64,000 bases of DNA from Acanthochlamys bracteata (taxonomy: Eukaryota; Streptophyta; Magnoliopsida; Pandanales; Velloziaceae). The position numbers and the translations under genes are program-made. The stretch spans positions 6,639,001 to 6,703,000 of the forward strand of contig CM034126.1 in assembly GCA_019914995.1 (NCBI GenBank), given 5' to 3'. Below are positions 3,631 through 51,532 of this stretch, piece after piece. The notes below the pieces were generated by a model. It saw only the letters and a list, made by a program, of their open reading frames with translations, had not been told where the DNA came from and made no database searches. Numbering within the stretch: position 1 is the first letter of the stretch; every line of letters starts with the position of its first letter.

Positions 3631-6600
3631 TCATTGCCCAGGGGCTCGATCCCTCCTGGATTTGCCCTTGTTCTCCTGCATCTTTTTCTTCTTTGCTTCT
3701 GGAGTAGTCCAAGTATAATCAGGAGGTATTATGAATGGATCTTGGATGTCCTCTACCCGACTGCTAGGTCCTGAAATTGTGGAACTCTGGCGGTATGGCA
3801 CTTTTACCCACTGGAACCAGGAACTTGAGGCCTGGCTTGGCACCAGACTCTTGCTCCCTGGACTTGAAGGTGGTGTGGAGAACTCTTCTAATGGTTGCAA
3901 CTCTTCGAACTTTGTGAAGGTGACCAAAACTCTGATTGTTGGTACAACAGGAATGGCAACCTGGAAATTTTATCAAGAAGTTAGAACAACACCAAAGCCA
4001 GTATGGACACATACAAAAGATTTTCAAGAAGAGATAAGCCAACAAGCTGGACAACAAATAATTAATTAGAGATTCAATGAAGACTACCAATTCATAAAAT
4101 CTGAGGAAGATTAACAAAATCTGATATGAGTTCCTATTGATGAGAGTAATACTTTCTTTAGCTAAATCCCCCAAGTTGGTGGGAAAAAACTTGCTTTAGT
4201 TATCAGAGGTTTATCAGGGATGGCATGACCAATCTGACACAGAATGTTAAACTTGCAATAATAAGGTGCCTTAAAAGTTACTAAGATATTTCAAGCTCCA
4301 ACTGTAAAAGCGTACTGGCAAAATGGTCAAGACATTGCAGCTTAGGACTTCCACACCAAAAAAAAAAAAAAAAAATTGATGGATGCAAGCCTGATAAATG
4401 CATGGTTGGAATTTTCTGTATCATTTCCAAGCCTGATAAATGTATCGAAATTCACCGATGCTTGAAAAGAGACTAAATAATTTAAAATTGATGCAATCTA
4501 TTCAGAAAATACCAATTTAATTAGGCAATGCATCCGGAATATGGCCACATGCAATGAATTCTAACATAGGTCAACATTAAATGTGCATCTATAGAATCTT
4601 GAAAGCTTTCACAAGTAACCATGATCTGCAAACCCAGTCAAGAGGATACTCTTTTATCAATAAAGATCAGCATAACATTTTGATAATTGAAATATCTTCA
4701 AATTTACTGGTCGGAAGAGATTAAATAGGAGGTATCATGCAAACCCAATCCAGCATCATAGAACAAAGAACAGTACGGTGCGATGCTTGTAAGCTCACTT
4801 GCGGACTTGTAGAAATTCAATCCCTTAGAATGGATTATTATACCAAGAAGATGAAAACCCACTGTGATTAGTGGAAAGTTACTTGGAGACACAGAGCATC
4901 AACTCGGACCAACTAAATTTCATGCACTTTGCACAACAAGTCAATTCAACTAGTTTGAGAGGTCATATTAGATCAATCATCTGGAAAAGAGTTGTAGTTC
5001 TTATACATACGATGCTTTTCAAAATTCATTAAGGGGCACTCACTCTTTTATAGACAATAAAAATGGCTTCCAATCTCTTTCTTATCTAATCCAATGCCTT
5101 CTATAACTTAAGAAACAAAGGTTCCCAAAGCAGCCACTATCCACACATATGTTGCCTAGAGTAAAGCTTCCATTAACAGAAATACGATGCATCTGATGAC
5201 AAATTCTTAACCAGCAATGAAAACATCTAATAACTATGCATCGATATCTAATACCTTCTAGAAGTGTTAAGCGAAGTAGAGCAGCTTATTAGAAATATTT
5301 TCAGCAATTTGATTTTGATGATGATTGACCAATGTCATCTAGAACCAACTTGCCTATATTTTCATTCCTCAAAGAAATAGTTGGCATAAACTCCTATACT
5401 TTACATTTCTATTCATCTTCAAGTATTAATTCAGTATCTCTCAAAAACTCAACTATATGTGCAATTGTTGAATAGTGAAAGAGCATATAATCAAAAAATT
5501 ATTGATTGGAAATTACAATAACAATCCAAAATAAATATTTACAAAGACATGAAAATATATAACCAAGCATCATTTTATAAATGAATGTCAGATATACTCA
5601 GAGGTCCGGATGCAATAAAATGGCATAAGTACCATTATGAGATCCAAAACTAGGTTAAATGTGAATCTAGAATTACCATGTGTTTCATGACCATCATACT
5701 TACCTATAAATTTCAAGTTCTTCTTTTAACCCGGCATTGTCGAGACTTGAGCCCATACCCCATGGCAGGACACCCTTACTACCCAAACTCGGTGGCAGCT
5801 TCCTAAACCCTTAAGTTTGTACCCTTTATGTAAGCTTTTAAGACAGAATTAACCAGCCTAAATATCATAATACCAGCATGACAAAAGTCCAAGCACGAAA
5901 AATTCTATATTCCTTTTCCATGACTGGGTGAAACCACAAGTTAAAATCAGCAGACTCTAGTCACCCATGTCAAAAAGGAAAAACTCATCCTAAAAGTCTT
6001 GACAATAAGCCTTAGCCAATTCAAAAAGATCAGCTTCAACAATAAATGTGAAACGATGCCCATTATCCTAAAATTGGCACATAAAGAGAAAACAGGAAAC
6101 AGGAAAGGAAGCAAAGATTTCATGTTTTGTTTATCTTTCCTATTATTTCCATGATATTATCCCAGACTAAGCTGAAAAGTCAATAAACAAGGAACTCAAA
6201 TTTTATAAAGTAGCAAAAATGTAAAAGAGATGTCTTTCCATTCCCATACCTTCACTGGAAAAGTCCCTGCAGGAAGCTTAGTGGTTAGTAGCTCTCTGAA
6301 ACGACGGATTGCCTTAACCTTGCTGGCAAGGATATCCAACAAGGGCAGAAGCTCATCGGTTTGAAGCGGGAAATCTGAAGAAAGCCATAACGTCGGCCTC
6401 AACCCTTTCTTGTACTCACTCTCTTTACCCCCCTCCTTATGCCTACGTCCATTCTCCGTAAGTGAACCAGCCTTCCTCAAATCCTTTTCTCTCAACCTCC
6501 TCAAATCCTCACTTCTGCCTGAAATCTCCACCGAGTGTCTTCCCGGCCTGCTCTGGTACCTTGGCGGGGACTCGCCAAGCAAATCACTGACCTTCTCATC

Positions 6601-7935
6601 CACACACAAGGAACTCCTTGGTTGTGGCATCTTCTTTGCTGTGTCCTTGTTCTGTCCTCTCTTACCCCACCCACCAAACCACCCTTTCTTATCCTGCTGC
6701 TTACTGCTCTCCAGACTGTTATTGCTGCTTCCATTTCCACTGCCATCCTCTACGGGGATCTCCTTTGGCTCATAGCAACTATGCCTGTGCCCAACAAGCC
6801 CGTCACTAGTTCCAGATTCATCATCATTCTCCATCCTAAGCGCAGCCTCAAGCTGCCGTCTCTCATCCTCAGTGAGAATATCCTCAAACTCGTCTACCAC
6901 ACTGCTCTCTGAATCATTCACATTGTCGCTACACGAAGAAAACAAATCGTCCTCATCAATCGACACCACAGTTCCAGGCACACGACGTGACTTAACACTA
7001 ACAACTACATTGTGCATATCATACACTTTTGTCTTCCATGGTCCTACCATCTCTGTCTTCTCCTGCCTCCGCCAATTCACCTGTGGAAGCAGTACCGCCT
7101 GCGTGACATCAATGCCCGGCCTGAAAATGCTAGACTGTGACATAGCCGCGACCTCTTGCGCAACCTCAGCTTCCGATGCAGGCGCCCCTGCTCCGTGCAA
7201 TGCATTAACAACTTCCCTGTCCTTATGCATAAGCATTAGTAGCGCCCCAGACTTAACCCGTGGATCGTTCAGAATTCCATCACCGAGAAAGAGAATCGAC
7301 TGATCAGCACGATGAATTCGAAGCCCATCAAATCCAGCAAGTGATAAGTCAGCACGAAGATTAGCACCACGCTTCCAGATTTTATAAGTATCAGAAGGAG
7401 CAACTCTCGAAACAAAGGGAATAACAGAACTATCGAAATGGAACGATATCTCAAGATAAAAATCACGCATACGACGCATAACAGCAACAAGCCTCGGCAG
7501 GCGGCGGCACCACTTGGCCCAAGCAAGCGGCTGGTAATGTCTTACAATAATTCTAGCAAGGTTTTCCTCCCGACGACAGATAGCCTCCTGCAAAGCAGAC
7601 CAACCATGCTCGTTCTGAAGGGACCAATCAGCGCCCGCGGAGAGAAGAAGGTCAACAGAGATGGGGTCAGAGAGACGAACGGCTAGATGTAGCGGTGTTT
7701 CACGGCTTGGAACATCACGGCGGTCGAGGATAGCGGAGATTGAATCAGCTTTGGATTCCTCAGCGAGTGAATCGGACTCAGTGTAGATAGTGGAAGGGTC
7801 AGACAGGCGAGGGAGGGAAGAGATTATACGGCGGAGAGCGGAGTAGTCACGAGTCAACACGGCGCGGTGGACAGGACTGTGGGCGTACTTGGTAACTTCC
7901 GCCGAAGCCGCCGCTGCGGTCGCAGAAGCTGCCAT
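3631..7935 (-). CDS. Ankyrin repeat protein with GPCR-chaperone (ANKRD13-type) domain
   Basis: Two exons. Exon 1 is 7935-6250 (562 codons, start ATG at 7935). Exon 2 is 3960-3631 (109 codons plus TGA). The donor is AAG/GTATGG, the acceptor TTTCCAG/GTTGCC, phase 0, giving ...FPVK/VAIPVVPTIRVLVTF... and a 671-aa protein. Residues about 19-140 hold ankyrin repeats (SPVHRAVLTRDYSALRRII; ETPLHLAVRLSDPISVDLLL; NEHGWSALQEAICRREENL). The rest matches the GPCR-chaperone domain of ANKRD13 proteins (LPRLVAVMRRMRDFYLEISF, YKIWKRGANLRADLSLAGFD, FLGDG), interrupted by a long acidic/Ser-rich linker. In animals ANKRD13 proteins act in receptor biogenesis and ubiquitin-dependent endocytosis; the plant role is inferred. 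The tail (from STPPSSPGS) is Ser/Pro-rich, then basic. The 2.3-kb intron (3961-6249) shows no other gene. The protein looks intact. Confidence 0.9.
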
Positions 7936-8360
7936 GGATCAAGTAGATCTTGGCTTTTTTTTTCCTTCTTCTCTACTATCTATATGAATCTATCCGTGAG
8001 TTTGAGATTTCTCAGTGTTGTTGTTTAGTGTTTTGAATTGAGAGAAACGGAATGGCATGTAGGGAAGAAGAGAAATGGAACAGAACAGGAAGGTTTGATC
8101 TGTTAAAAGAAGAAGAAGAAGAGAAAGAGCATGTGGGGGAACTGGGGAAGGGAAAGAGATAGAGAGAAAGAGAGGGTTTCGTTGTTTTGTGGGGGAATAT
8201 TTATAGAGGAGAGAGAAAGAGAGAGGGGAAGGAATCAATCAAGTGAAAGAAATAAAAGAACGGAGGAAAGAGCGGGGAATTTTAGAGCGAGCAAGCAAAT
8301 GGACAGCAAAGTAAGGAAAGCAAAGGATCTTTCAAAAAAAAAAAAAAAAAAAAAATTATC
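7936..8360 (-). promoter_or_regulatory. 5' leader and CT-rich promoter-proximal region of the ankyrin gene
   Basis: On the minus strand, the region upstream of the ATG at 7935 is strongly pyrimidine-rich. The plus strand shows long GAGAGA/GAAGAAGAAG tracts at about 8105-8280, followed by a 24-bp poly-A run near 8333. CT-rich patches close to transcription starts are common in plant promoters. No TATA box or start site can be fixed with confidence. Short open frames here are low-complexity artefacts. Confidence 0.4.
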
Positions 8361-8612
8361 AAAGTTTATGAGAGAACTGAAGAGAGAGATAGAGGTAACG
8401 TCCATGTATTGCTAACTAAGTAATAAACTGACTATTTTATTATCATCAAGGAACCGAGGAAGATGAAGGGAAGATCATGATGAAGGAAGCTACTGATATA
8501 AGCCATCATCGTCATCAATTAATTCAAATCATAAGTTCATCACAGCACTACAGAAGAGAACCGTAAGTTTGTATGAAGTAGGAGGAGAGAAGGAGGAGAG
8601 GTTTCTATCATA

Positions 8613-9950: not shown

Positions 9951-11349
9951 AGTTTGGATACATATGGTTTTTCTTAAACTTTTTACTCAATTTAAGTTTT
10001 CTAAGGTTTTGGAGAGAGATTGAGAAAGCAATGCAGGCATGTGATGGAAGAGAGAGAAAAAAAAAAATGGAAACATAAAGAAGAAAGTAGGATAGATCGT
10101 ATTCCGTTTAAAGAATGGGAGTGGGGACCACAATCAAGATTTTGATATAATTGTTTTTTATACATTAAATTTATTATATATTTTTTTTGATAATCTAGAA
10201 AAATTTCTTGAAACTAATTCAAAATTTTTTAAAAGACTTTTCAGGAAATTTTAAACATTCTCTAAAAGCCAGCTAGAGATATATTTATCAACATTTTAAC
10301 TCATTTTTGTATTTTAAAAAATTTTATTTTCAATTTATTTACAAATCAAAATAAATATAGAAATTAAATTTAACTTTTTAGCAAAAACTTTATTTTGTAG
10401 AATTTAAATTTTAAAACTAAATTTTTATTTTTAAACTACTTTTAGTAATAAATTAATATAAAATTAATTTATTTGAGCTCTACTTGTTGAGTGTTTTAAT
10501 TTATAAAAATTTAATTTTATAACAAAAGAAACACGCCTGTTGAGATATAAAAAAACTTTAGCATTACCATATCCGGCGCGGTGGACGGACGCGGTCTACT
10601 GCGCCCGCGAGACATAACTTAATCATTATCATGTCCACCTATTCGATATGGTTTAGTTAATATTTGAAAATTTTACCATCTCTCTTTTATTTTAATTTTT
10701 AATTATATATTTTTTAATAAAATTTTAATATTTTATAATTTTTTTAATTTAAAAAATATAAAAAATTTTATTATGTCTATTTCTTCGATATAAGTTGTTG
10801 TTATTATCCAAGTTTGAAGTTTTTGACTAATCCCGTCCGCCGCCCAATCAAAAGGATCTGTAGTTATTACTGTTATTATTGTTGCTCGTTGGAAAATGAA
10901 ATGCACTGCAATGCTATGCGTGATCAATTTTATTTCATTCGTTTGCCTCTCCAAACCGATGAATAGCATTTTATGTTAACAGCTATTTTGAATAACAGTA
11001 ATAAGGTTGATTCTTTTATCAATAATTTTGAATCTATTTTTTTAATATTATTTCCAGATTGGGAAGAAGGACCACTAATGTGATCTGTATTAAGATTAGT
11101 TTAACAAAAGAATAGGTAGCTGTTACTTATTAATTTCTGGCTATTTCAAACTCACGCGCACAAGCTTCTCCAATTCAAACCTTGTCGGTCATTCAAGGTA
11201 TTAGGTAACAATCGCAATTCATTTCGTATTTTAAAAAAAAATGCATCTGCTTTTCTATTTGCGATCATTGAATTGGATGACTGAATTTTAAAAAATGCAT
11301 GCAAGTGTCCTATAAACATGCTTACATCTCTTTATATACAAAGTACAGA
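9951..11349. other. AT-rich intergenic stretch, no gene seen
   Basis: Mostly A/T tracts with short GC islands (for example about 10573-10610). No exon-like frame, RNA gene or clear repeat end was recognised. Some parts resemble worn MITE interiors, but no ends were found. Confidence 0.45.
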
Positions 11350-13138
11350 CACATACATCATTGTTAAGTATATATCGCATATATTAATTCTGAACCATCG
11401 GATCGAATGATCCGACTATTAGAAGCAAAACGCTAATACTCTATGTCGTTTCCCTTCCAAAGCGGACACGTCTTCTTCCATATGTATCACTTACTCAATC
11501 TTACATGCTCTTTTCATTCTTCTTTTCTTCTTGTCTTTCTGCATTCGAGTGGACCTTACATCTCGCTCGTGATCTAAGCACCTTACCGCTACTGCTTACA
11601 ATCACTTAGCCACCACTGCTCAATATTTTTGATTTTTCTTCTTTCTTTCTTTTGTTTCTTCTCACTAAGAGATATCTCTCGCCTCCTGCAAGCGATCTAA
11701 GAATCACTGATAAAAATATTTTCTCTCTTTCTATTTTGTCTAATACTGCTCGTTGCTTCTTTTTTTTTCAGATGAGATTTTACCGGAAATTTTGTGTTTT
11801 GGGATAAATAAATGTAAAATTTATCAGATGAATTTATAGTTTTTTATTCAAAGTATGTCAATTGATGTGATTTTTTTTCTATTTTAACTAGAATTTGTAT
11901 ATTTATTAGATAAAAATTCGAATTGTTGGATCCGTCGGATGGATGAATTTGAAGTTTGATTCTAACTATATCAAGTGATGTAAATATGATGAGAAACATA
12001 GTTTGGTTTCATGCTTACCACTACTAGTGTTTCCAATATGAATAATGTGTGCAAAATGGATAACTACGAGAATGATGATGACCCTAAGCTAAGTTGATCG
12101 TGTACATTCAAGTCTAGTAGTTTAAGATTATGTGATGTAAATCTTTTTTTTTTTTTATATTAATTCTAACATGCTAGTTATTTAAACTTATAATCTAATC
12201 TTATCTTTTATGATGAAATTAATAAAAAAAAACACAAATTCCCAATAAGCAAAAATTTTTTAAGTTTGTATATACCTATGATTGTGAATTTTATTATGAA
12301 TATGAGTATCAAGTAATGTGAATACAAAAGCAATGAACATCATCAAAACTTAGCTCAGAATCATCATCATCCTCGGAGTTATCCACTTGCACACATCTTT
12401 CACATTCAAAACACCAAAACATCAAGTTTGAAAGCAAATTTATATTTCTAATTCATATTCACATATTCAGCATCACGCATACTTTGAATCGAATTTCAAA
12501 TCCATCCTTCCGACGGATCCTACAATTAAAATCTTTATTTAATAAATATTCTAATATGAATAAAGAAAGATCACATCAATTGACATCCTTTGAAATTAAC
12601 AACTACCTATCCATCTAACAATCTCATTTTTTTTTTCTGAAGAACAAATTCAATCTCAAAAATCAAATCTTTTTCCCAATACCAAAAAAATAAAACACAA
12701 AAAAGTAATTTTTAAACAAAGTCCTCAGTAAGATCTCATCCGAATCCCCTAACCCATTCTTTCGGAGTAGAAATTAGATAAAATAGAAAGAGAAAAAAAA
12801 CGAGGGGAGAGAATTTTTTTTGAGTAGCAACAGGTGCTCAGATCGATCGCGGGATATTAGCGAGCTCTCTGATGAGAGGAAAGAAGAAAAAACTGAAGAT
12901 ATTAAGTAGCGGCAGCGAGCGATGTGAAAAGCAACAATAGGGTGGAGGAATAAGAGAAGAAGAGACGAAAAACGAAGAGAACAAGTAAGATTGAATGAAT
13001 TGATGGATATACAAGAAGATGCTGACCTTCCGCGTTATCCACCGGCGCATAATAGCACCTCTCTTCTAGCCGTTGGATTAAGCATCCGATGGTGCAAAAT
13101 TAATGTGCACGATGTACACTTAAAACTGATGTACACAT
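11350..13138. mobile_element. Large foldback / long-inverted-repeat element (arms about 0.8 kb)
   Basis: The left arm (11350 to about 12130) is an imperfect reverse complement of the right arm (about 12320-13138). Paired landmarks: ACCATCGGATCG at 11393 with CATCCGATGGT at about 13083; TCAATCTTACATGCTC at about 11494 with GAACAAGTAAGATTGA at about 12978; GTCAATTGATGTGA at about 11857 with TCACATCAATTGAC at about 12572; TTGGATCCGTCGGATGGATG at about 11926 with CATCCTTCCGACGGATCCTA at about 12503; TGTGTGCAAAATGGATAACT at about 12048 with AGTTATCCACTTGCACACA at about 12378. The loop is about 12130-12320. No transposase frame is present. It could be a foldback transposon, a long-TIR Mutator derivative, or an inverted duplication. 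Confidence 0.8.
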
Positions 13139-16100
13139 GCAAACCTTCTTGATTGTCCTTCAAGAGATAGGAGATAAGGAATTAAAATCTCATATAGTAG
13201 CGGTTTTGTTGGAGGAGTTGCATCTTCATCATCAAATTTCATGTCCTCTAAGCCATCATGTGCGATTATTAGGATTTGTAAATTATCATTATTTCATTAC
13301 AATAAATAAAGTTTAAAAAATAATAAATAGATATAGAAAGTCTCACCTTTTTTGAGGTTAGAGAAGAAATCTTCAACACTCCTCATAGCAGTAGCTTCAT
13401 TAGATAGCTTGCTCTTATACTTTAACAACAATTGCTGATTTGATAGATATTCCTCATTTATAAGGGCAACAACGTTAGCCACATTAAGTAACGCTTACTA
13501 TCCCATTCAAGTAAAATAAATCTCAACAATTGATTCAAATTTAGGAATCATATAATAATGTTAGTGCCACCGCAAATGTATAGTACCCATCGAGTATAAA
13601 GTTTAATTTGCAATAGACCCTTTCTCTATTTATCCAAACCATTTCTAGAAAATCACTCGTTCTAAGTAACTCTCACTAACTCAATAAAAGCTGTAGAAAG
13701 GCAAATAAATTATCAACCAACTACAATAACTCCAAATTAGTATTAATATGTTTCTACTTAAAATTCTGACTTCAACAAAATGTCAAAAGCTCATATTGAG
13801 GAAATCTTCTCGAGCACATTTATGACCCAACCTATTATAAATAGATTCCAGTAGCATCATAGTTAATTGCACATCATTTATCTTTGAAATTTTTTTTCCA
13901 AATCACTCCATCCATTTTCTTGTTTCAATAGAGATATATCACTTTCTTAACTCACGCGAAATCTAGCATACAGTCTTTAAAACCGAACTCCAATTTCTTT
14001 CTTTCTATGAAAGACATCATGCTGTATCTTCTACCTTCAACGTCCTCCGCAACAGAATCTGATAAATTATTTGATTTAAAGATGAAAGTTAGGCATACTG
14101 AGAATGATCCCTCAAAGCAAAGGGCTCTGAGCATCTCAAGCCTTATTTAGTTTTGGATGTTTTATTTTAAATATCGTCGCATACTCCAAATTTCTCTAGA
14201 GAAATATCTTAATACTTTTGACAATCTTTTCTTTTTAAAACCTCCAAAGCCTACTATAATTTATAATATATATATATATACAATTATTAAATAATCAACC
14301 CAAATATATATTACAGATACACAGCAATAAGGGCAGAGTGTGACCCTTGTGACTATTTTTGCGACTCGTTACAACCATATTGTGTAACATATACGACAAT
14401 ATCTTTATGACATATGGACTTGTATTATCATATACATGTGACATTGTGCGAGATCGGTCTGATACGTGCGCCAAGGTTGTTCTATACGATCGGTGTGACT
14501 GTATGTTAAGTTAGTGTTGTAGATAATATCGCAAATAGAACAACAACACGATAAATAAAGAAAAAATTCAGCGTACCTAATGAAGTCATTGTTGTCACTT
14601 CAGAATGAAAGGCGATAGGACAAATTTCATTTGAGAGCTGGCGAGAGAGATGCAACGGAAAAGAATTGTAAAACATGATTGGGGATACGCCTTTGTAGTG
14701 AATTTATTTAAAAATTAGAAAAAGTTTACAACAATTTTGAAACTTTTGCAATGGGATAAGGACGAGACTAGAGTTTTGTGAGCGAGCCGGGGAGGAATTA
14801 TAAGTCGGGAGATAAATTTGGAGCGAGAAAAATTTTGATCTTTTGATACTCAAAAATGACTAGAAAAATAAATTTTAAAAAGGTAGTCTAGAAAATAAAT
14901 TTGACTTAGGTACGGCTTATTTAATCAAATAACTCATAGAAGTTAGAGATATTATATTCTCCCGTATATATACTGATGTATACCGATATACATTTAAAAA
15001 ATAATGTGCATATATTCTCACCATATATATATACATATATATATATATATGTGAAAGGTGAGGTGGATAGCCGTATTGATCTTTTGATTTCAAATTTTGA
15101 TATTCTTTTTATTTATTTTCTTTTTAAACTGTCTAGTTGAGAAGGCGAAATAGTTCCTGAACTTATATTTCAAGGAAGGAGAAAATAACCCTATCTACGT
15201 AGTATCATTCATCACTACATTTATTAATCACGATATCTATTGGCGAGAAAGACTAGACTTCCAATTTTCGCAACCCTAAGCAAAAAATAAAAGAAAAAAA
15301 GTGCTGAAAATTCCTACTCATTTTCATGCCACCCAGAGTACAACATGTTCTATTTCTGTTTCAAATTCAAACACCCATAAATAAAAGGCCTTCCTTATCA
15401 TTTGAAGCATTCACCATCTTTGTCTCATCCCCACATTTTCTGAGTACTCCAATGACCGACACAGCTTCATAGAAATAGGAACAAAAATATCATTGCAGAT
15501 ATCATGCACATTGACTCATACCTTAGCAAGACAAATTGAAAGGAGCAAAGGAAATGGAATGCGACTCTTTCCTGAGCCATGCATAATATACAGAGATAGC
15601 TTTACGAAAGAAACCAGAATCCAACCAAGATGAATACCTACCTCAATCAGTTTCACTGTGTATTAGTCAAAATCAATCGAACAATTTAACTATACACATC
15701 TGTAAGTATGTACCAAATTGTTCGATTTTCACGGGTTTGTCTGTTATCAAGAAGGAGCTAAAGCAAGGATCACACCTTTAATCAAAGACGAATATGTTCT
15801 GAATGTTTTGAAACGACCAGAAACAAAAGGTCCTAATGGAGCACCTAAGAACACCTCCAAGTAAAAAGAACGTGGCAACTTCAGAACCGTGCAAGAAAAT
15901 ACCCACACAAACAAATAGCATCATTCAGAACAAACCAAATCAAAACTACCACTAGTCACACTACCATGCGTAAGAGAATAAGAAAAAATATCATAATCAA
16001 AATCTTAGAGGGGAGAAGCATCTTTGACTCGCGAACCCCAAAAGCAGGAGCTAATTGTCTCTTCGTTTTCCTATTTTTTCTTTTTGACATTTTATCTTTT

Positions 16101-17674: not shown

Positions 17675-20600
17675 CTACTGCCTGGACAAACTTTGCATAT
17701 GAGCAATTACATCCTTGAGGCAAGACAGATGACTCAAGAATGCTTGATCTAGTTCGTCAGACTTAGCTTGAGAAAGAGAATCACATGCAATTCTCAAACC
17801 TTTCTGCATCAACTCCATTCCTTCACAAATTCCATCTGGAATCTCTCTCTTACTGTGCATTACAAATTTCTTGTCCATCATCTCCAGATCATTGTATCCA
17901 GCAACTTCGGGATTCCCTTTACAAAATCCATCACCATCAGGAGCCTTCCTCTTTTTCCTTATTTCAGGATCTTCATCTTTTGCTTCCACATCTTTTGCTT
18001 GAGAAGCTTCAGAAGTGGTATACACCATCTTACCAAAGCTTCTTAAAGCCTTTCCTTCTTCCACAAGAAAATCCAGCTGCTCTTTGGAAGGAGTAACAAC
18101 ACATAAAGCTCTTTCCTTCTCGAGATATACCCTCAACTCAGACATAAACCTCTCCTCTTTTGCCTCATGGCCATTATCAGTGTTGAAAGAAAGAGCTGCA
18201 TCATGAGGCACAAATCTCCATAACTCTGCACATGTAGTACGAGCAGCAAAATAACCAAAGGCAGCTAGAGCCAAATGAATGAATGCCCAGTGCCTCTCCC
18301 TTAGTAACTCATGGAATAAGTCCCACACTGCTAAGCAAACTGCATCATCTTCCCCTTCAGATAATTCAACACTACAAAGACCTGCCATAAAAGACGCCAG
18401 GGAAGGTTTACATTGGTATGCTAGAGTATCAGTATTCATTGATGTTATGAAAAGATCTTTCAGCTCCAAGAGGATCTCCCCAAATCCCTGAACCGTATAT
18501 GAATGCTTCATATTGGAGGTGATATCCAAAATAGCACCAACAAGATTCCTATAATGGTCTTTCATGTTGTCAGCAGAGCTTTTGTACGTATGAATAAGAC
18601 TAGTTACAAACTTCAGAACTTTTGCGATCTCCTCATTAGACATATCAGAGTGTTTGATTTCACTAACAAAGAGAAGAAAGACAGCAGCAAAGAAATAAAT
18701 ATATCAGTAGTTTCATAAAAGCAGTGCCGGTTGTTTCATAAAAGCAGCTCTAGTTGACCAGTTTGGATGCAATTCACTACTTACCCAGAAATAATTGCTG
18801 ATGCCATAGCATATACTGGTTGTCCAAGTAAACTAGAATTGCGAGGTCCTATAGATACAGCGGAGCCAAGCTCATCTGTAAAACTCTCTATAAAACTCTC
18901 AAAGGCGTTGATTATTTTCCTACAAGCCAATACTTTGAGCTTATCTGTTAATGAATTTAATGGAAAACCCTCCATAAGTAAAGCTATGAACATGATAGAC
19001 GACAAATAGAAATCATCGTCATTCATAATGGATCGATAGACTTGATCCACAGATGAAGAGTTTGCATAGGTCAGGAAGATGCAGATAGATCTTGCCACTT
19101 TCCTCAAGGAACAAAGAGGCATGAGGATTGGTTCTGAAGATGCAATCTCCTTTAAAAACGAGCACAACTTACCAAGCAATAGGTTATTCATCTTTATCTC
19201 AGCATGACGCATTAGAAAGCACCAAAGTTCTTTAACTATCTCCAGGCAGATAAAGTGGGGATGGAGCAAATTCTGGAACAGAAAGCTCTGAACCTCTAAC
19301 CAAGCCTGATTTGTAGAAGCCACAATCAAGAATGTTTTCATTGAATTCAGAAGAAAGCAAAACATGTATTGCGGAACTACCACAGGATTAGGACCAGAAT
19401 CACAAAGCACATGAACTTGTAAACTGAGAATACAAGCATAGACATCCTCATGAGTCAAAAGGTCCAGAAAGTAGCTAAGTTTTTTAGAAATTTGAAATAG
19501 AACCTCTTCTTTGTGTCTCAAAGAATTCTTGAGAAGATTCAGGAACAAAATTACCCGTCCTAGCACTAATGCTTCAGATGCAGGAACTGCTTCACAGTCC
19601 ACCTTGAAAATATGATCAATTACAGCACTATCCTTATCTTCATCAATGTTTTTTGACTCCGAATGTCCCTGATCTGGGAATAACCACCCCAATATGTTTA
19701 TTTTTGACTCATGTTTTACATCAGCTGCATTTAGTAATGAGTGTACCAGAAGATAAGATGTCGGCTCTAGTAACTCTGCAAGAGCCTCACTTCCAGATGC
19801 AAGAAGGATCTCTTTGCTCATGAAAATTCCCATGGATGAAATGATCAGTACACATCTGACTATGTCCTGATAAAGTTTAATGGCTTCACAAGGATATTCA
19901 GAGGCTATCCGTACAGCATTAATTAGGTAAAACTTCACTGGTAAAAATGCCCTTTTCGCTTCAGAAATTGGCAGAGCATCTTCTGTTCTTAAAAATGCAT
20001 CAGCGGCACATCTTAGAGACTCGGTGGCCAATGAAATGAGCGTTAAAATAATGTCTCCTACATTTATCCTATCAAGCAAAACTCCTTTTCCAAGTTGCAG
20101 CAAAGAGACTAGACCTTTCCATGAAGCATTTAGTACAGTAACTAAAGTCCCACCACCAGAAGCTGCAAATATTCCCAACTCAAGCAGATTGTTTATTGTG
20201 CAAGCTGTGATGCTGACAATATGACTGGCATAATCTGCTTGGAAATCATCCTGTAGCACTTTATTTCCAATGAAACTCCTTTCACATGAATCCCATCCAA
20301 TGGCTTGAGAATAAGCTCTGCATAGTTTTATTGCAGAATCAAGAACCATTTGGCCCACCTTAAGCAATTGCGAGCCATTTGCTTGAATTTTCTGTTATAT
20401 GAAGCATTATGCCACAGTAAGAAAGAAGAAATCACCTAGATCTTTGGTCTTCCTAAAAGTCATAAAAATATAAGTACATAGAATGAATTAAGGATACAAG
20501 CAACCCTAAACCAAAATGCATCTGATTTCAAGAAATATCTGAAAGAAATTATGTGAAGCATTATGCCGCAGTAAGAAAGAAAAATTACCTAGATCTTTGG

Positions 20601-38709: not shown

Positions 38710-40003
38710 CTACCGGCGTAATATAAACGTACTATACGATGCTTCTACGGGTGATGGGACAAAACTTTTATGTTCTGCTATTGAGAATGCCTCATCGGAC
38801 GTACCGTGCTTTCTGATAAAGTTATGAATTGACATTGTAACAATGATAATATCTCGTTGAATATTAATGTGATATGGTGGCATATCTTCTAAAACTTTAA
38901 ATCGAGCTTTCCATACGTCAATGGTGCGTTCGATAATACTTCTGTAGGATGAGTGGAGTCTGTCGAATTTTTCTCTTGAACCCCTTGGTTTCCGCAGCTG
39001 TGCTGTACTTGCACGTCGAAAATTGCTGAGATGATATCTTATGCCTTCACCTGCATACGACGCCATATAACCAGATCTGTGTGTATAACCAGCATCCAAC
39101 AGGTAATACTTGTTGCCTGAAGGATGAGGAAACTCATGCTCTAGGTTACATAATGCTTCGTTGAAAACCTTTGTGTCCTGAACACTTTCTTCCCATCTAG
39201 CCAATACAAAGGTGAGTTCCGTCAATTGCTCACCAACGTTTTGAGTAACATCATTTACGGCCAATGTAAAGTTTTTACTCAGCAGTTGGCAATGTAGCCT
39301 TGGTATGAGTTTTGCTCCAATACAATCCTATAATAAAATATCCAATGTTCAAATCAGCAAAAATAAATTTCTCATATTATAAAAAATATGCGCTACTATA
39401 ATGAAAAACTAATTGCTTATCTGAAACCACGGAAGCTATTGTGTGTTCTCTGGTTTGTGGTAGATAACCCCTTCATTATAGTAGCAATGTGGCCGTAATA
39501 ACTGTTTTGATAATTGTAATATAGCTTTCAACACCTTGTGAATATGCCTAAAAATTATTTCTCTCGAATGATTAAACATCTTCTGAAGTAATGTGTTTGT
39601 AAATCCATGGGGATAAGTTAAAAAGAATATTGCAACGCTCTCTTCGACCGTTGTTGATCTTGTTGGTTAGAAACCGTAGTCACGTGTCAAACATTGACAT
39701 AATGCTCGAAAAATATTTTTCTTCATAAGAAAATTTGAGTAGCAGCGACTCTCGTTTTCCTCCAATATTTCTAAAATAAGTCGATGACCTTTGCGTATGG
39801 ATGTATGGCACGGATTGTTGATCTTGCTGTGTACATATATAGGCGCAGCATGATAATTTACTTGTATAATGAATTGTGTCCAGGTATTGTCGTCTTGGTT
39901 ATTCGCATCATTTTTAGAAACATCCTATGAAGCTATAGAAATATCCATTGGATCATCAAATGAAGGCATCCAAACATCCATCGAATCATCTAAATCACTC
40001 ATT
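38710..40003 (-). pseudogene. Dead PIF/Harbinger transposase (HARBI1-like DDE nuclease)
   Basis: The minus-strand translation follows the plant Harbinger transposase order with breaks. It begins MSDLDDSMDVWMPSFDD (about 40000) and hits an early stop. Then come HTSIRKGHRLILEILEENES, FLMKKNIFRALC, TVEESVAIFFLTYPHGF and FNHSREIIFRHIHKVLKAI (39620-39530). The first-Asp block (usually DCIGAIDGTH) is lost: DCIGA runs into unrelated residues. The long clean frame 39264-38710 carries the C-terminal half, with FVLARWEESVQDTKVFNEAL, the second-Asp region YYLLDAGY, RYHLSNF, IIERTIDVWKARFKVLEDMP and IVTMSIHNFIRKHG. Stops and the missing Asp show it is inactive. Confidence 0.85.
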
Positions 40004-41229: not shown

Positions 41230-41504
41230 AGACATTTATAATGTATAATCAACAAAAAATCTTATGTCGTAAATATCGTAAGTAAGCTACCATAATAACA
41301 ATTACAACAACTCTACTACTTAGTTATATTCTTATATTTAACTATTTATCTATGAAACACGCAAAGTCTTCACCACAGTTATGTTATGCTATTTATCTAC
41401 GTATAACATCTCATTTTCAGCTTAGAGAAAAATTCATTCCATCATCTAACTGAAAAACTATCATAAAAAATTTTCAAACAATAAAATCACATATATAAGA
41501 ATTT

Positions 41505-43435
41505 TTCAAACTTGTAGTATAGAAGTTGCTACAAAAAATTTACACTAACTTATGCATTTGATCTAGAGTGTAGTGTAAAAGTTTTTATACTAGTTATACA
41601 CTTCTAGTATAAAGTTAATACAAAAATTTTTTACTAGTTTATACTATACTAGCATATACTTGTAGCATAAAGTGTAGGGTGAAAGTTTATACTAACTATA
41701 CACCTGTAGGATGAAGTTTAGTGCAAAAGCAGAAACAAAAAAATTTTTCGAACATATCCAAAACTGTTGCTGAAAACAGCAATACATATTGCATCTGTTT
41801 TTGCTAAAACAGAAAACAGGTAATTGTGATTTTATTGCTAAAAATCAGATTCTATTGCTAAAACCGAAAAAATATGCAAAAACAGAAACCAAAAAAGATT
41901 TCAAACATATCCAAAATCATTCTTTAAAAAAAGAATACATATTGCATCTGTTTTTTGCTAAAAAAAAAAAAGTAATTGTGATTTTATTGCTAAAAATCAG
42001 ATTCTATTGCTAAAACCGAAAAAATATGCAAAAACAGAAACCAAAAAAGATTTCAAACATATCCAAAACTGTTGCTGAAAACAGCAATACATATTGCATC
42101 TATTTTTGCTAAAACAGAAAACAAATAATTGTGATTTTATTGCTAAAAATTAGATTCTATTGCTAAAACAGAAAAAAAATATGCAAAAACAGAAAACAAA
42201 AATATTTCGAAGACATCCAAGAACTTTGCTAATAACAGCAATAAATATTGCATCTATTTTTGCTAAAGAAGAATACCAAAATTTTTTATTTTATTAGTAA
42301 AAATCACATGCAATTATTTGATTTTATTCTAGCTATACATTTGTAATATAAAGTTTAGTACAAAAAAATATGTATTAGCATACATTTGTAGTATAAGTAA
42401 GCATTAGTATAAATATATTATACTAGCTTATACTTGTAAATTTAAGTGTAGTAAAAGAATTTTGTACTAGCATATACTTGTAGGTATGGAGTTTAGTATA
42501 AAAATTTTATACCAAATGCTTGTAGTATAGAAGTTGCTAAAAAAATTTACACTACCTTATGCATTTTATATAAAGTGTAGTGTAAAAGTTTTATACTAGT
42601 TTTGCACTTCTAGTATAAAGTTAATACAAAAACTTTTTACTAGTTTATACTATACTAGTATATACCTGTAGTATAAAGTATAAGATGAAAGTTTAACTAA
42701 CTATACACCTGTCGTATGAAGTTTAGTGCAAAAACAGAAAACAAAAAAATTTTCAAACATATCCAAAATCATTCTTTAAAACAAAGAATACATATAGCAT
42801 CTGTTTTTTTGCTAAAAATGAAATGTGTAATTGTGATTTTATTACTAAACAGATTCTATTGCTAAAACAGAAAAACATATGCCAATACGGAAAATAAAAC
42901 TATTTCGAAAACATATCCAAGAACTTTGCTAATAACAACAATAGATATTGTATCTGGTTTTGATAAAGAAGAATACCAAAATTTTTTATTTTATTACTAA
43001 AAATCAGATGCAATTATCTGATTTTATTCTAGCTATACATTTGTAATATAAAGTTTAGTACAAAAAATATGTACTAGCATACATTTGTAGTATAAGTAAG
43101 CATTAGTACAAATATATTATACTAGCTTATATTTGTAAATTTATGTATAGTAAAAAAATTTTATACTAGCATATACTTGTAGATATAGAGTTTAGTATAA
43201 CAATTTTATACTACCAAATGCTTATAGTATAGAAGTTGCTATAAAAAATTTTCACTAGCTTATGAATTTTATCTAACGTGTACTGTAAAAGTATATACTA
43301 GTTATGCACTTCTAGTATAAAGTTAATACAAAAACTTTTTACTAGCTTATACTATACTATCATATACCTGTAGCATAAAGTGTAGGGTAAAAATTTATAC
43401 TAACTATACACCTATAGTATGAAGTTTACTTCAAA
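41505..43435. repeat. Compound higher-order tandem array (units A, B, C)
   Basis: Unit A (about 210 bp, starting TTGTAGTATAGAAGTTGCTA) occurs at about 41513, 42526 and 43225. Unit B (153-bp period, with GCATCTGTTTTTGCTAAA) has anchors at 41791, 41944, 42096, 42250, then 42797 and 42950. Unit C (about 190 bp, TTCTAGCTATACATTTGTAA) occurs at about 42325 and 43027. The order is A-B4-C-A-B2-C-A. The A-to-A distance is about 700 bp in the second period and about 1,010 bp in the first; the difference equals two B units. Confidence 0.85.
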
Positions 43436-44098
43436 AAAAAATAATAAAAATAACTAATAAGAAGATTTCACGATGTAAAATTTTATTGCACTTTTAAAAT
43501 TTTAAAAAAAATTCTGTAAAACATTATAGAAGCTTTATTGGAAAACATAAAATGAAAAGTTGGGAGAGAAAAGCTCCTCTAAACATGCTCTGAATGCTGA
43601 ATCAAGATCTGACAAGATCTCATGATACCTAGTCGGATCGGACTTGAAGTGGCTCAATAGATAAATCGACGATAGATAATATGGAATATATTGAAGACGA
43701 AGTCTTGGAGATCTGGACGAGTAGCGGCAACGGAAAAATTTCTCCAATGGCAGGAAATTTAAGGGAGCTGATAGTTGAGCAAGAAGATATATAAAAGATT
43801 AAGACCAGAAAACAAAAAACGGTTGACGAACAGAGCAAGCAAGAAAATTTACAGAGACTTATCCATTGCTCCAATTCTCAAACAAGTCCAAGCACATCAT
43901 CTTCTCATCACTGGCTTTCTTTTGATCTGCTCACACTATTCAATCTGACAGCACTTATTTGTGAGATAGATACTGAGCTGTAAACCTGAGTTGTAATTCT
44001 TTCTGAAATGTGTAAGTGCTGTTTGCACTTGGGAGTGAAAGGCTTTGCGAAACTTTCACTAGTAAAACTGTTCTTGTAAGTTTGTGAGTATAGCAGTA
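43436..44098. other. Spacer between tandem array and LTR element
   Basis: No gene recognised. GAGTGAAAGGCTTTGCGAAA and nearby TGTAAACCTGAGTTGTAATT (about 43978-44060) look like the end of another retroelement LTR, but no partner was found. CAGTA just before 44099 may be one side of a target duplication. Confidence 0.35.
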
Positions 44099-46590
44099 TG
44101 TAATAACTATAACCTTGTGGGCTGCATGAAGCTATTGAAAGAAATAGTGGCCCTTATATGCAATGTCTCTTGCTTAAGGTTTTTTTTTTCCCTTTCTTCT
44201 TCCTTCCTTTCTCATTTTTCTGCCCTAACCCAGCCGCCACTGCTCCGGCTCCTCTCCGGCGTGAAATCAACCCCTTTCCTGCGATATTCACTCCATTTCA
44301 TCTTCTCAAGTCATCCTTCTTCTCATTTCCGCTAGTTCTTATCAATTCCGGCGAGCTACGCCGTGCAGGACAAATTTTTAAAATTTTTCCGGCCATTTTT
44401 CCGACGTTCCGGCGAAGGTAAGTAGATAGAAACATTCCTCTCAAATTGCTAAGCCTTTTCCCTCATTTAATTGCATTGATTTTCAGCTCCGGCGATTGAT
44501 ATCGCATGAGTTCGCCGCCGAACGTTATTTCGTCGATTCCGGCCACCGGCGATAAAATTAGAACTCGTCGTTCATTTCGTCGGATTCTACTAGCGGTATT
44601 ATTCATTTTTACTGTTTTGAACGCATTTGGCCGGAACCCTAGCTCGCCGAAATCCGGCGAACCTTTCCGGTGACCTAGTTAGGTGAGTTAAAAATACTTG
44701 CATCGCGTATTTGAGATTGTTGTTAGATGAATTATTAATTCGTTTCGTTTTAGGAAATCGTTGGATTGAAAATACGTGAGTTGTTGCCGATTAAAGTCGT
44801 ATAGCATCCGATCGTCTCGCCTCGTCGGTAAGCTTCTTGGATTCGTTAGTTAGTACTTATTGTGTAGTGGATTAGAAATTTGAATAAACCGTTGAACGAA
44901 TAAAATTCTAGAATAGTTCACCGTATGCTATTAAACCTTGGATTCAAACTTAGTTAGATATTTATTATAAGTATTTGATTTAGCTTTCATTAGCGTGCTT
45001 ATTATTGAATATGCCCGTATGCACGTTAGGCGGTACGAATGACTTGAATTCGGACGGTGCGGCTTAGAGTTGACAGTTGATATAAATACTTGCTTGGACT
45101 ACAGGTGAGGGTTACCGTGCCATATTTTCTTCCTAGATTAACGTTAAGGCTTTCGGCACAGGTAGCATTTTCTTTGAAAATTCTGGCGTACCTTGCCATT
45201 CTCGTTACGTATTATGATTTATCCCTCATGCTACATATGCCTGTACATGCTTAGATTTATTCCACATCATGTTTATAGTTATTACTAGCATGTTTGCATA
45301 TTGTAGACTAAATGACATAATTATGAGAATATGCTATATACATGTCAATACTTTTCCTTTCATATATGCATAAGTATAATCACGATAGCTTTGAAGGCAT
45401 TGAGCATAACATGTTCATTGAATGAAAACCTATTATGTTGCATCTATTTGTTAGGGATTGCATTGGTATGTACTGTCATAACCTATTATATTATATATGC
45501 TTGAATGAGATATTGATACGGTGGGTCCCAGGATATACTGGGCGCCAAAATATATGGATAGTCGATGGGTCCCAAGACATACTGGGCATCGAGTTATAAG
45601 ATATGGATCGCCGGTGGGTTCCAGGACATACTGGGCACCGAGCTATGATGATATTACTTGCCGGTGGGTTCCAAGACATATTGGGCACCGAGCTTACCTG
45701 TGGTTTGATATATATAAACGTATTACGTATGTATGCTTGTATGATATATCCGATATTATAATGTGAATTGGAAAAATGATCTCACTCGATCGCCTATTTT
45801 GTATGATTATGACACTTGATGCATCCGTATACATTATTACATATATTTGCTTGCATGGGTGCACTATATATATGTATATGTATTATAGTCTTGAGAGTGT
45901 CGCATAACATTGTTTCATATTATCGTATATCTCTGCTAAGAACTGAGTCGGTATGGGACGATTCAGGACTTAGTAGAACCTGATCTGATCTGATCTATCG
46001 TTGCATCTGCTTCATGTAGATAGTACTATAATGCATATTTAATGCATTATCTAAATTGGGCATTCTGTTGTTTTACCTCACTGAGACTGGGCTCACCCTC
46101 TTTTCTTTTCTTTGGCCTCCCCCAGATAGGTCAGAAGCTAACGGGCGTTGATTAGACTCGATATTGCTGGACCGAGAGCGTACGAAGGGTATTTGATAAA
46201 TCTTTTGGCATGTAGTTAGCTCTGTAATTCTCGAAGGGTATTGACTTTTCTTGTACTTTATTGTATTTGGTATTACGATGGAATTTATTTTGGATTATAA
46301 TAGGAGTCGGTGGCTACCGGTAGCCCATAGATATTTTTGTTGGTTTTAGTATTTATATGATTTTATTTATTTGTTCTATTTTGTCGTTATTAAGTGATTT
46401 ATTGTGGTACAGATTTTCACTTGAAATTATAGGGAAGGTTTTGCAGAAATTTTATGTATTTATTTTTGGAGATATTTGATGAACCGTTTATGATGTTTTG
46501 GGTCAGGCTTATTGGGTTAGACCGAGTTTGGGCCTTGTCTAGACTCGGTTTAGTTCAGTGCCGGTCAGAGTCTAATTTTGGGTCTTGACA
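44099..46590 (+). mobile_element. Solo-LTR-like element, family X, plus orientation
   Basis: It begins TGTAATAACTATAACC and ends GGGTCTTGACA, giving TG...CA ends. CAGTA (44094-44098) and TAGTA (46591-46595) on either side may be a 5-bp target duplication with one change. It is 2.49 kb with no gag or pol frame. The first 500 bp are CT- then GC-rich with CCGGCGA motifs, as in a promoter/leader. A second copy in reverse orientation (49487-51532) shares both ends and most of the sequence. Reading as a lone long LTR is an inference; an intact second LTR in the same orientation is absent. Confidence 0.65.
45516..45700 (+). repeat. Four tandem copies of a 44-50 bp unit inside the LTR-like element
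   Basis: TGGGTCCCAGGATATACTGG and variants (TGGGTTCCAGGACATACTGG) recur at 45522, 45566, 45615 and 45665. Each is followed by GGCACCGAG or a variant. The opposite-orientation copy of the element lacks this whole block. Confidence 0.85.
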
Positions 46591-47121
46591 TAGTAGATAT
46601 GTCGGCAATGAGACTGCTTGGATTCATTTCAAAAAGTGAACCAGTCAAGACAACGATGCTTGGACAGGCACTTTGCTTGGGTGATGTTGTTTTCAAACAA
46701 AAAACAGCGAATTTTACTCAAATAAAATAGTCATAGACGTGGGCAAATGTATTTGTTGAACCACGTAAATTGTTTGTGTTTAGTTATGCTCGTGATATTT
46801 GTTATATTTGAATAGATTAACTGCTATTCACTATCATCCTAGTTTGTTTTCAAAAAATTTTGTTTCTTAGTCGACTAAAGTGGTGTTTTTTTAATAAAAT
46901 AACTGTAAATTTTTTGTTTACTTATCAATGCAATTCATCTCTCTTCTATTGAATTGATTGTTCAGGATTCCACATCAAATTCTTAACTGCATTTAGATGT
47001 TTAAAAAATGATAAGCTGCATGTGGCTGCTTTTGGGAAGAAGTTCTTGACCAAAATTCTTGTCGTTAACATAATTTTAGTCCTTAATCTACTAAAGTGTT
47101 CATATTTTGCTTTAGCTGCAG

Positions 47122-49465: not shown

Positions 49466-49486
49466 TAAGGTTTATGATATTGCTAA

Positions 49487-51532
49487 TGTCAAGACCCAAA
49501 ACAAGACCCTCATCGGCACTGGACTAAACCGAGTCCAAATAAGGCCCAAATTCGACCCAATCCAGTAAGTATGACCCAAAATTCAATAAAACTAACAATT
49601 TGTCAATATTCAAGAAAATATCGACATGATCTTCACTAAAAACTCAATAGGAAGATCTATGCAAACAACAATAACTATGATTATCCCCAGAAATCCAAAG
49701 CAATAAAAAAATGACTAATATGAAATTCATTTACACAAACACTACTAATGGCTACCGGTAGCTGTAACACCTATTACAATCTAAAATAAATACTATCATA
49801 ATACTGCATACAATAAAGTACAATAAAAATCAATGCCCTTCGAGGATTACAGAGCTAACTACATGCCAAAAAGTTTATGGTATACCCTCCGTACGGTCTC
49901 GATCCAGCAATACTGAATCTGTGGGAGACCATAGAAGAAAAAATAGGGTGAACCCAATCTCAGTGAGATAAAATAGCAGAATGTCTAATTTAGATAGCTA
50001 ATGTATTAACTAGGTATTATAGTGCTATCTGTATGCAGCAGATGCAACGATAGATCAGATTCTAGTAAATCTTGAATCGTCTCACACCGTCTCAGTCCTT
50101 AGCAGAGATACGATAATATGAAACAATATTACGCAACACTCTCAAAGTTATAATATATATATATATATATAGTACACCCATGCAAGCAAGTATATGTAAT
50201 GGTGTATGCGAATACATCAAGTGTAACAGTCATATAAGGTGGCAACCGAGTGAGATCACATCTCCAACTCACATCACGCTACCAGATATATCATACAAAC
50301 ATACATATGCATGGTTGTTAAAATCTCAATTTAAATTTTAAAATCTTACGCTTTTACGATTTTATATCAGTAAAATGATCATACTTGATACAAAATCTCG
50401 ATTTTACTTCAAATCTGTAAGATCCCGATCTTACTTGTGATCTTACGATTTCAGTTTACAAAAAATTTTCATGAATCAGAAGAGCTCTCGACGATTTTGA
50501 GTGAAGCTAAAATAGCTAAAGAAGATCAGTCGTTCGTTTGTAGCGGGTGCGGTTGTGTTTGGTTTATTTCGTGAGGAATTTATTATGAGAGCAAAATATT
50601 TTCTGTATGGTGGTGTTTTGAATTATATTTTTTCTCTTTATTTGAGGCGATAAAGACGGATTGCTTGATTATATAAGGAATTAGATTTTATAAATATGGT
50701 ATAACTATATAAGTGTATATTTATAAATAATGACATAATATGTAAATATATTTGTGATAATGAGCTAAATAGATATAAAAAACTGTTAATGATATAGTTT
50801 ATCTGAACTACAAATATAAAAATTATTAATTTATTATATCAAGATGAAATATAAAAAAATTATGTATTTAATTTCAGTAATTTCAATAAATACTATCTAA
50901 ATTTTTAAAAATATTAAATAAATTTATAAAAATATTATCGATAAGTAAAATCTTACGATTTTACTTAAACTCCCGATTTTACGATCCTACATAAGCAAAA
51001 CGATCCTATATAAAATCCCGATTCTGACAATCTTGGCACAGCCAATAGAACCCAATGAATAGACGACGAGCTTCAATCTTATCGTCGGTGGCCGAAACTG
51101 ACAAAATAACTTCTGGCGGCGAACTCATGCGAAATCAAGTGCCAGAGCTGAAAATCAACGCAAATAAATAAGGGAAAAGACTTATCAAGTTGAGTGGAAC
51201 GTTTATACCTATTTATCGTCGCCGGCGAAAACGGCATGACAAAATCCTAATTTTTCTATCCCGTGCGGCGTAGCTCGCCGAAGCCGTAATAACGATGCCA
51301 AGAGGGAGAAGATGATGGACGGAGTAGCTAGAGGAGATGGCCGTCGTCAGAGAAGGTTGATTTCGCGCTGGAGAGGGCTTGAGCAGTGAGGGCTGGTGGC
51401 GCTGTTGGCAGGCAGAGGGGAAGGAAGAAAAAAGAAAAATAAAAGAAAGAGACATTGTATGTTAGGGACTTTATTTTCAATAATAGCTTTCTTTAATCCA
51501 CAGAACTATAAATATTACCGTTACAATATACA
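49487..51532 (-). mobile_element. Solo-LTR-like element, family X, minus orientation
   Basis: Read on the minus strand it begins TGTATATTGTAACGG at 51532 and ends GGGTCTTGACA at 49487. It aligns with the 44.1-46.6 kb element at both sides: GGCGAGCTACGCCG, GATTTTCAGCTC.GG and ATCGCATGAGTTCGCCGCC near the start; TTGCTTGCATGGGTG and CTCACTGAGA.TGGG near the end. The equivalent of about 44.62-45.72 kb in the plus copy is missing, and an unrelated insert (50312-51036) sits there instead. Its flanks (GCTAA and AGTTG) show no target duplication. Confidence 0.7.
50312..51036. mobile_element. Insert within the minus LTR-like element, TIR-type non-autonomous element
   Basis: The left end GGTTGTTAAAATCTCAATTT roughly matches the reverse complement of the right end, AGATTGTCAGAATCGGGATT. 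Both subterminal parts are full of TACGATTTTA/TAAAATCG/GATCTTACG motifs, while the middle is plain A/T. This pattern fits a non-autonomous hAT-like element. It replaces about 1.1 kb of the host element, so deletion accompanied or preceded insertion. Confidence 0.5.

Follow-up and report, generated by a model that had tools for sequence, protein, structure and literature searches.

The DNA considered here, called the window, is a stretch of 64,000 nucleotides of the Acanthochlamys bracteata genome (C1:6639001-6703000; the prefixes C and L denote contigs and individual loci). It carries a gene for an ANKRD13-type ankyrin protein at 6196-7935 on the minus strand (PF11904, E 1.2e-88) and, at 17675-20367 on the same strand, two frames of a DUF4487 protein, which is the FLIP-like gene of the original prediction. 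Two inverted arms of about 0.8 kb each lie face to face at approximately 11340-13145. Their placement between the two genes was correctly predicted, and the right edge also abuts another old dispersed repeat. The features of this region are the following:

11340..12108, plus strand: left terminal inverted repeat (arm alignments and BLAST; terminus checked visually against GGGTATAGATATGTGTACAT of relatives)
12106..12333, plus strand: former internal sequence, now the loop (adjoins the left repeat in larger relatives; matches L039, L040, L054 and other loci)
12326..12333, no strand: deletion junction (ends of loop matches and starts of right-repeat matches)
12332..13145, minus strand: right terminal inverted repeat (arm alignments, BLAST and the edge of the flanking repeat)
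12312..12452, minus strand: stop-to-stop frame with an acidic stretch (GAT-rich run, frame not conserved)
13146..13560, minus strand: decayed dispersed repeat bordering the foldback on the right, outside the element

Other copies of the right-flank repeat occur at C1:7753129, C4:6563728, C16:3642274, C6:2918847 and further places, with 64-70% identity. Homology to other copies stops at the foldback edge, namely at 13145 for L061, 13135 for L063 and 13131 for L062, which independently supports an edge at about 13145. We dismissed a reading in which the right flank would be the terminal exon of a host gene whose stop codon is supplied by the element, as the flank has decayed copies elsewhere. 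Eight fragments of the 13.1-17.7 kb region gave one sub-threshold match only in Pfam, and one fragment had no match in the PDB. Neither an Rfam match at gathering score nor a tRNA was found in the window, and the window element had no match in a plasmid collection.

Elsewhere in the window, a 184-aa frame at 38710-39264 (minus strand) matches DDE_Tnp_4 (E 1.6e-11), and we take it to be a remnant of a PIF/Harbinger-like transposase. Tandem repeats with a unit of about 152 bp occupy 41494-43450 (3.8 copies at 41722-42306, plus related blocks); a 309-base piece of them has 63 matches in the genome, including the window's own, the others being 73-92% identical. Further along, an inverted pair (45728-46591 and 49486-50307, 74%) is nested in another one (44133-44597 and 51038-51482, 71%). 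The arm at 45728-46591 belongs to a high-copy family, with 87-97% identity for the other copies among the 40 of 616 candidates that were scored.

The presence of a large foldback element between the two genes was confirmed by alignment. When gaps are allowed, positions 11354-12108 of the left arm pair with 13133-12332 of the right arm, with 536 of 683 aligned positions identical (78.5%), 147 mismatches and 191 gap positions. The score of 449 compares with a maximum of 234 for 180 pairs of arm length drawn at random from the window, and a wider arm alignment scored 498, as against at most 228 for 100 dinucleotide shuffles. Self-comparison of the region recovered the same arrangement: a repeat search of 10800-13800 gave 11 inverted pairs, including several collinear ones, BLAST found three collinear inverted blocks between the arms (74%, 68% and 92%), and one gapped pair spans the arms. 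Position 11340 is approximate since the outer end of the left repeat has decayed; pairing with the right arm starts at 11354. The aligned arms are separated by a loop of 223 bases (12109-12331), so that the original description of almost no loop is roughly right. The hairpin is not near-perfect, as had been proposed, in view of the 78.5% identity of the aligned columns and a longest perfect arm-to-arm run of 17 bp, with no run of 21 bp or more in the gapped alignment. The element is a worn foldback. An artefact of assembly collapse is very unlikely, because the arms have diverged and relatives of the same design exist at other loci. At a substitution rate of 1.3e-8 per site per year, the distance between the arms (K2P 0.256) would translate to some 10 million years, but no age is claimed since the arms may already have differed when the element inserted.

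Stop-to-stop frames of at least 36 aa number 25 in the window element. The nine longest and the acidic frame (10 of 25) were submitted to Pfam, and these ten gave no match above cut-off to a transposase, MULE included, or to any other family; the acidic frame had one sub-threshold hit (E 0.043). This agrees with the earlier statement that no transposase is present, as far as these frames go, and it led us to reject host-gene capture. For the acidic stretch itself, derivation from a gene had been suggested as a possibility. The right arm of the window copy has no stop in the corresponding frame (ECERCVQVDNSEDDDDSELSFDD), and 19 of 21 translated aligned rows carry one. The second open row (L044) is without the acidic stretch, and the GAT run falls in different frames in different copies. 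In view of the stops and the shifting frame of the GAT run, we rejected a coding reading, and a derivation from a gene is not supported.

The origin of the arms becomes clear from relatives in the same genome, which measures 195.5 Mb. The window element has at least 85 matches at E ≤ 1 when 40 of 50 candidates are scored, five of them being the window copy itself, and copies are dispersed over many contigs. Short matches aside, the relatives are 67-86% identical to the window element. From 20 regions extracted around matches, six contained an inverted pair that coincides with family matches in self-BLAST (L037, L039, L041, L046, L048 and L056); the remaining self-inverted hits were palindromic or local stretches and one pair in L044. 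The most informative relative, L039, is an element of about 7 kb with inverted repeats at 1439-2520 and 7399-8444 (about 1.05 kb, 91% identical). The inverted pairs of L037 and L041 are shorter than those of L039, in L040 the right repeat alone was found, and the right ends of L050 and L054, which lie beyond the extracted stretch, were retrieved separately.

Eight reading-frame fragments of these relatives were given to Pfam, and two of them had no match. FAR1 was recognized in L040 (E 2.1e-12), L039 (E 5.9e-11) and L041 (E 4.6e-7), and the MULE domain (PF10551) in L039 (E 4.3e-19) and L041 (E 3.4e-12), while SWIM appeared in L041 only, with 19.4 bits and thus below the cut-off of 19.6. These domains sit between or beside the repeats in L039, L040 and L041, and the transposase is broken across several frames. 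No undamaged full-size partner was seen among the relatives examined in this genome. The FAR1 part of L040 has at least 152 matches in the genome when 150 of 817 candidates are scored, with identities of 49-100% among those listed, indicating that the genome is rich in such transposases or in domesticated FAR1-like genes. Long terminal inverted repeats, a trait of the MULE superfamily, are present in both L039 and the window copy. The arms of the foldback are the terminal inverted repeats that surround transposase pieces in larger elements of the same genome, in line with the original suggestion that they may stem from an autonomous element.

The loop can also be placed. In L039, the counterpart of positions 12106-12333 follows the left repeat on its inner side, with order and orientation unchanged, and L040 and L054 have it at the equivalent place. 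For the latter two the alignment stops at 12333, and for L039 it trails weakly to 12369. In element coordinates, a number of BLAST matches to the loop stop at 994 (window 12333) and a number of those to the right repeat start at 987-993 (window 12326-12332), so that the two sets share between 2 and about 8 bases at the junction. The loop is therefore internal sequence from beside the left repeat that became joined directly to the right repeat. By subtraction, about 4.6-4.7 kb of L039 and L040 is absent from the window copy at this point, and the transposase frames of the larger relatives fall within the absent part. The window copy shares ends and sub-terminal sequence with the larger elements and misses their coding part, as expected of a non-autonomous derivative, and a single internal deletion, from left sub-terminal sequence to the right repeat, accounts for its build.

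We consider it very probable that the window element is an old Mutator-like DNA transposon, non-autonomous and with an internal deletion, presumably of the FAR1/Jittery type, a typing based on Pfam domains of the relatives, with SWIM below threshold. A full-size ancestor would have lost its transposase by internal deletion, probably due to failed repair after excision. The short form may then have been mobilised in trans, or the deletion may have occurred in place, after which the copy would have decayed. It has no evident present function.

The ends of the relatives give some further information on transposition. A 20-base end taken from L039/L048 was found at 64 places with at most three mismatches, against 58 for a reversed control, so that information comes only from the best hits, 11 of them exact and two with one mismatch. 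The sequence GGGTATAG is present at both edges of C1:388220-394717, C8:6115618-6122233 and C17:6319408-6321288, and the outer ends of the window copy have drifted away from it. The 9-mers adjacent to the C1 copy (AATAAATAT and AATAACTAT) match at 8 of 9 positions and those of the C17 copy (AATTTTATA and ATTTTTACA) at 7 of 9. When 2000 pairs of positions were drawn at random from the window, none reached 8 of 9, and 7 of 9 had a frequency of 0.0015, although AT-rich targets make such matches easier. These two relatives appear to have imperfect 9-bp target duplications. The 9-mers of the C8 copy also match at 8 of 9 positions, but lie inside TA repeats and are uninformative, and those of the C14 copy match at 3 of 9, or 8 of 9 if the edges are allowed to slip by up to 5. 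Around the window copy, no target duplication was found in the adjacent 9-mers, which match at 3 of 9 positions (chance 0.455), or 6 of 9 with the same slippage. In a search for an empty site, we took five copies of the right-flank repeat and compared the sequence past their matching edge with the left flank; none of the comparisons scored above shuffles, and a genome search with the left flank gave no match at any other locus.

A different history, in which two separate insertions or half-elements of one family ended face to face, has some support from the divergence of the arms, but is unlikely. In the multiple alignment the window arms are 68% alike over 661 columns, which is about as far apart as they are from the arms of other copies. 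We built a tree from 29 repeat ends, hand-picked from 50 alignment rows, with loop-only and short rows omitted and some rows trimmed. The window arms are not sisters in it: L042 pairs with the left arm (support 0.84), and the right arm attaches to these two (0.79). Assembly from two different ends is compatible with this tree. Own ends pair with support of at least 0.89 in L037, L046, L056 and L059 and weakly in L041 (0.22), whereas those of L039 and L048 do not pair even though each was taken as one element. Great age, or end sequences that already differed at birth, would both yield such non-sister arms. The loop also speaks against two insertions, as it keeps the L039 order and orientation after the left arm and meets the right repeat at one point, as predicted for a single deletion.

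The original prediction also pointed to hairpin RNA. Folding of the predicted plus-strand RNA gives -563 kcal/mol with 480 arm-to-arm pairs, and of the minus strand -607 kcal/mol with 501 such pairs. The plus-strand energy is lower than that of each of 22 window segments of the same length, of which the lowest reaches -544, in a segment with 47% GC versus 32% in the foldback. If the foldback were transcribed, small RNAs from the hairpin might contribute to silencing the numerous Mutator-like elements of FAR1 type in this genome; by losing its transposase, the element would then have become a silencer acting on its own family. The maize locus Mu killer offers a comparison for a hairpin-RNA locus of this kind; a literature search for Mu-killer-like hairpins gave none, a result that says little. 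This small-RNA proposal, which comes from predicted folding, is improbable, and that the locus should be understood primarily as a hairpin-RNA locus yielding small RNAs against this family is still somewhat more doubtful, since the longest perfect duplex run is 17 bp and relatives, short matches aside, are matched at 67-86% identity. An inverted duplication that arose locally from a host gene or intergenic DNA without transposition, which could be read from the mixed composition of both arms and the short acidic frame in the right arm, can practically be discarded: copies are dispersed over many contigs, and some of them have ends in common and enclose transposase sequence, while the ten frames searched (of 25) gave no Pfam match above cut-off.

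Returning to the internally deleted transposon, a second subfamily shows the same combination of sizes. Its representative L056 is a palindrome of about 0.8 kb (C19:3508273-3509095) with arms that are 83% identical, and its arm has 22 matches in the genome, itself included. Facing arm pairs of this subfamily lie 6.5-6.7 kb apart at C7:7552550-7559167, C1:6742496-6749209 and C18:1528602-1535143, each enclosing one FAR1 match (67-73% identity), and shorter facing pairs occur at C9:2473183-2475041, C12:6793611-6795578 and C5:6141922-6143430. Because both subfamilies hold both sizes, larger and foldback forms coexist twice. The C1 pair is located about 39 kb past the end of the window, on the same contig.

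The closest description found is that of MuTAnT from Medicago truncatula. The accessible part of that paper describes foldback Mutator-like elements with GGGG ends, 9-bp duplications and insertion in (TA)n, together with a larger coding relative similar to Jittery and many defective copies (PMC4486113). The likeness concerns the foldback form, the GGGG ends, the putative 9-bp duplications, the coding relative and the defective copies, and is one of description. The window arms of about 0.8 kb are longer than the 144 bp of the first-described MuTAnT, and unlike MuTAnT insertions the window copy lies outside any (TA)n run; in its family, TA runs occur on both sides of C8:6115618-6122233 and on at least one side of L039, the C14 copy and C17:4788797. 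The foldbacks with long palindromic ends known as FARE in Arabidopsis, now regarded as Mutator-like (Windsor and Waddell 2000, as cited in PMC4486113), likewise resemble the window element by description. With FAR1 at the N-terminus, a MULE domain and a weak SWIM, the relatives resemble the Jittery/FAR1 group. In the portions available of a survey, the plant Jittery sub-group has FAR1 and SWIM or CCHC, and the dicot and monocot Jittery sub-group has repeats of 39-292 bp or none according to its table, the overall range being 14-500 bp in the text and up to 640 bp in the table (PMC6446971). The repeats of L039 (about 1.05 kb) are longer than the lengths given there for the Jittery group. Excerpts of another source give 100-500 bp as typical for TIR-MULEs and place Jittery and FAR1 in one clade (PMC3903597); further background was taken from parts of PMC9168764 and PMC3310237.

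The window element is thus an ordinary old non-autonomous Mutator-like foldback of an already known kind. The family to which it belongs has larger transposase-bearing elements, intermediates and foldbacks side by side in one genome, in two subfamilies, and these coexisting forms show how a large foldback arises. The repeats of about 1 kb in L039, which exceed the lengths in the available text and table of the survey (PMC6446971), are a modest extension of what is described there. Apart from the repeat length and the coexisting forms, the history of the family is one of ordinary transposon decay.
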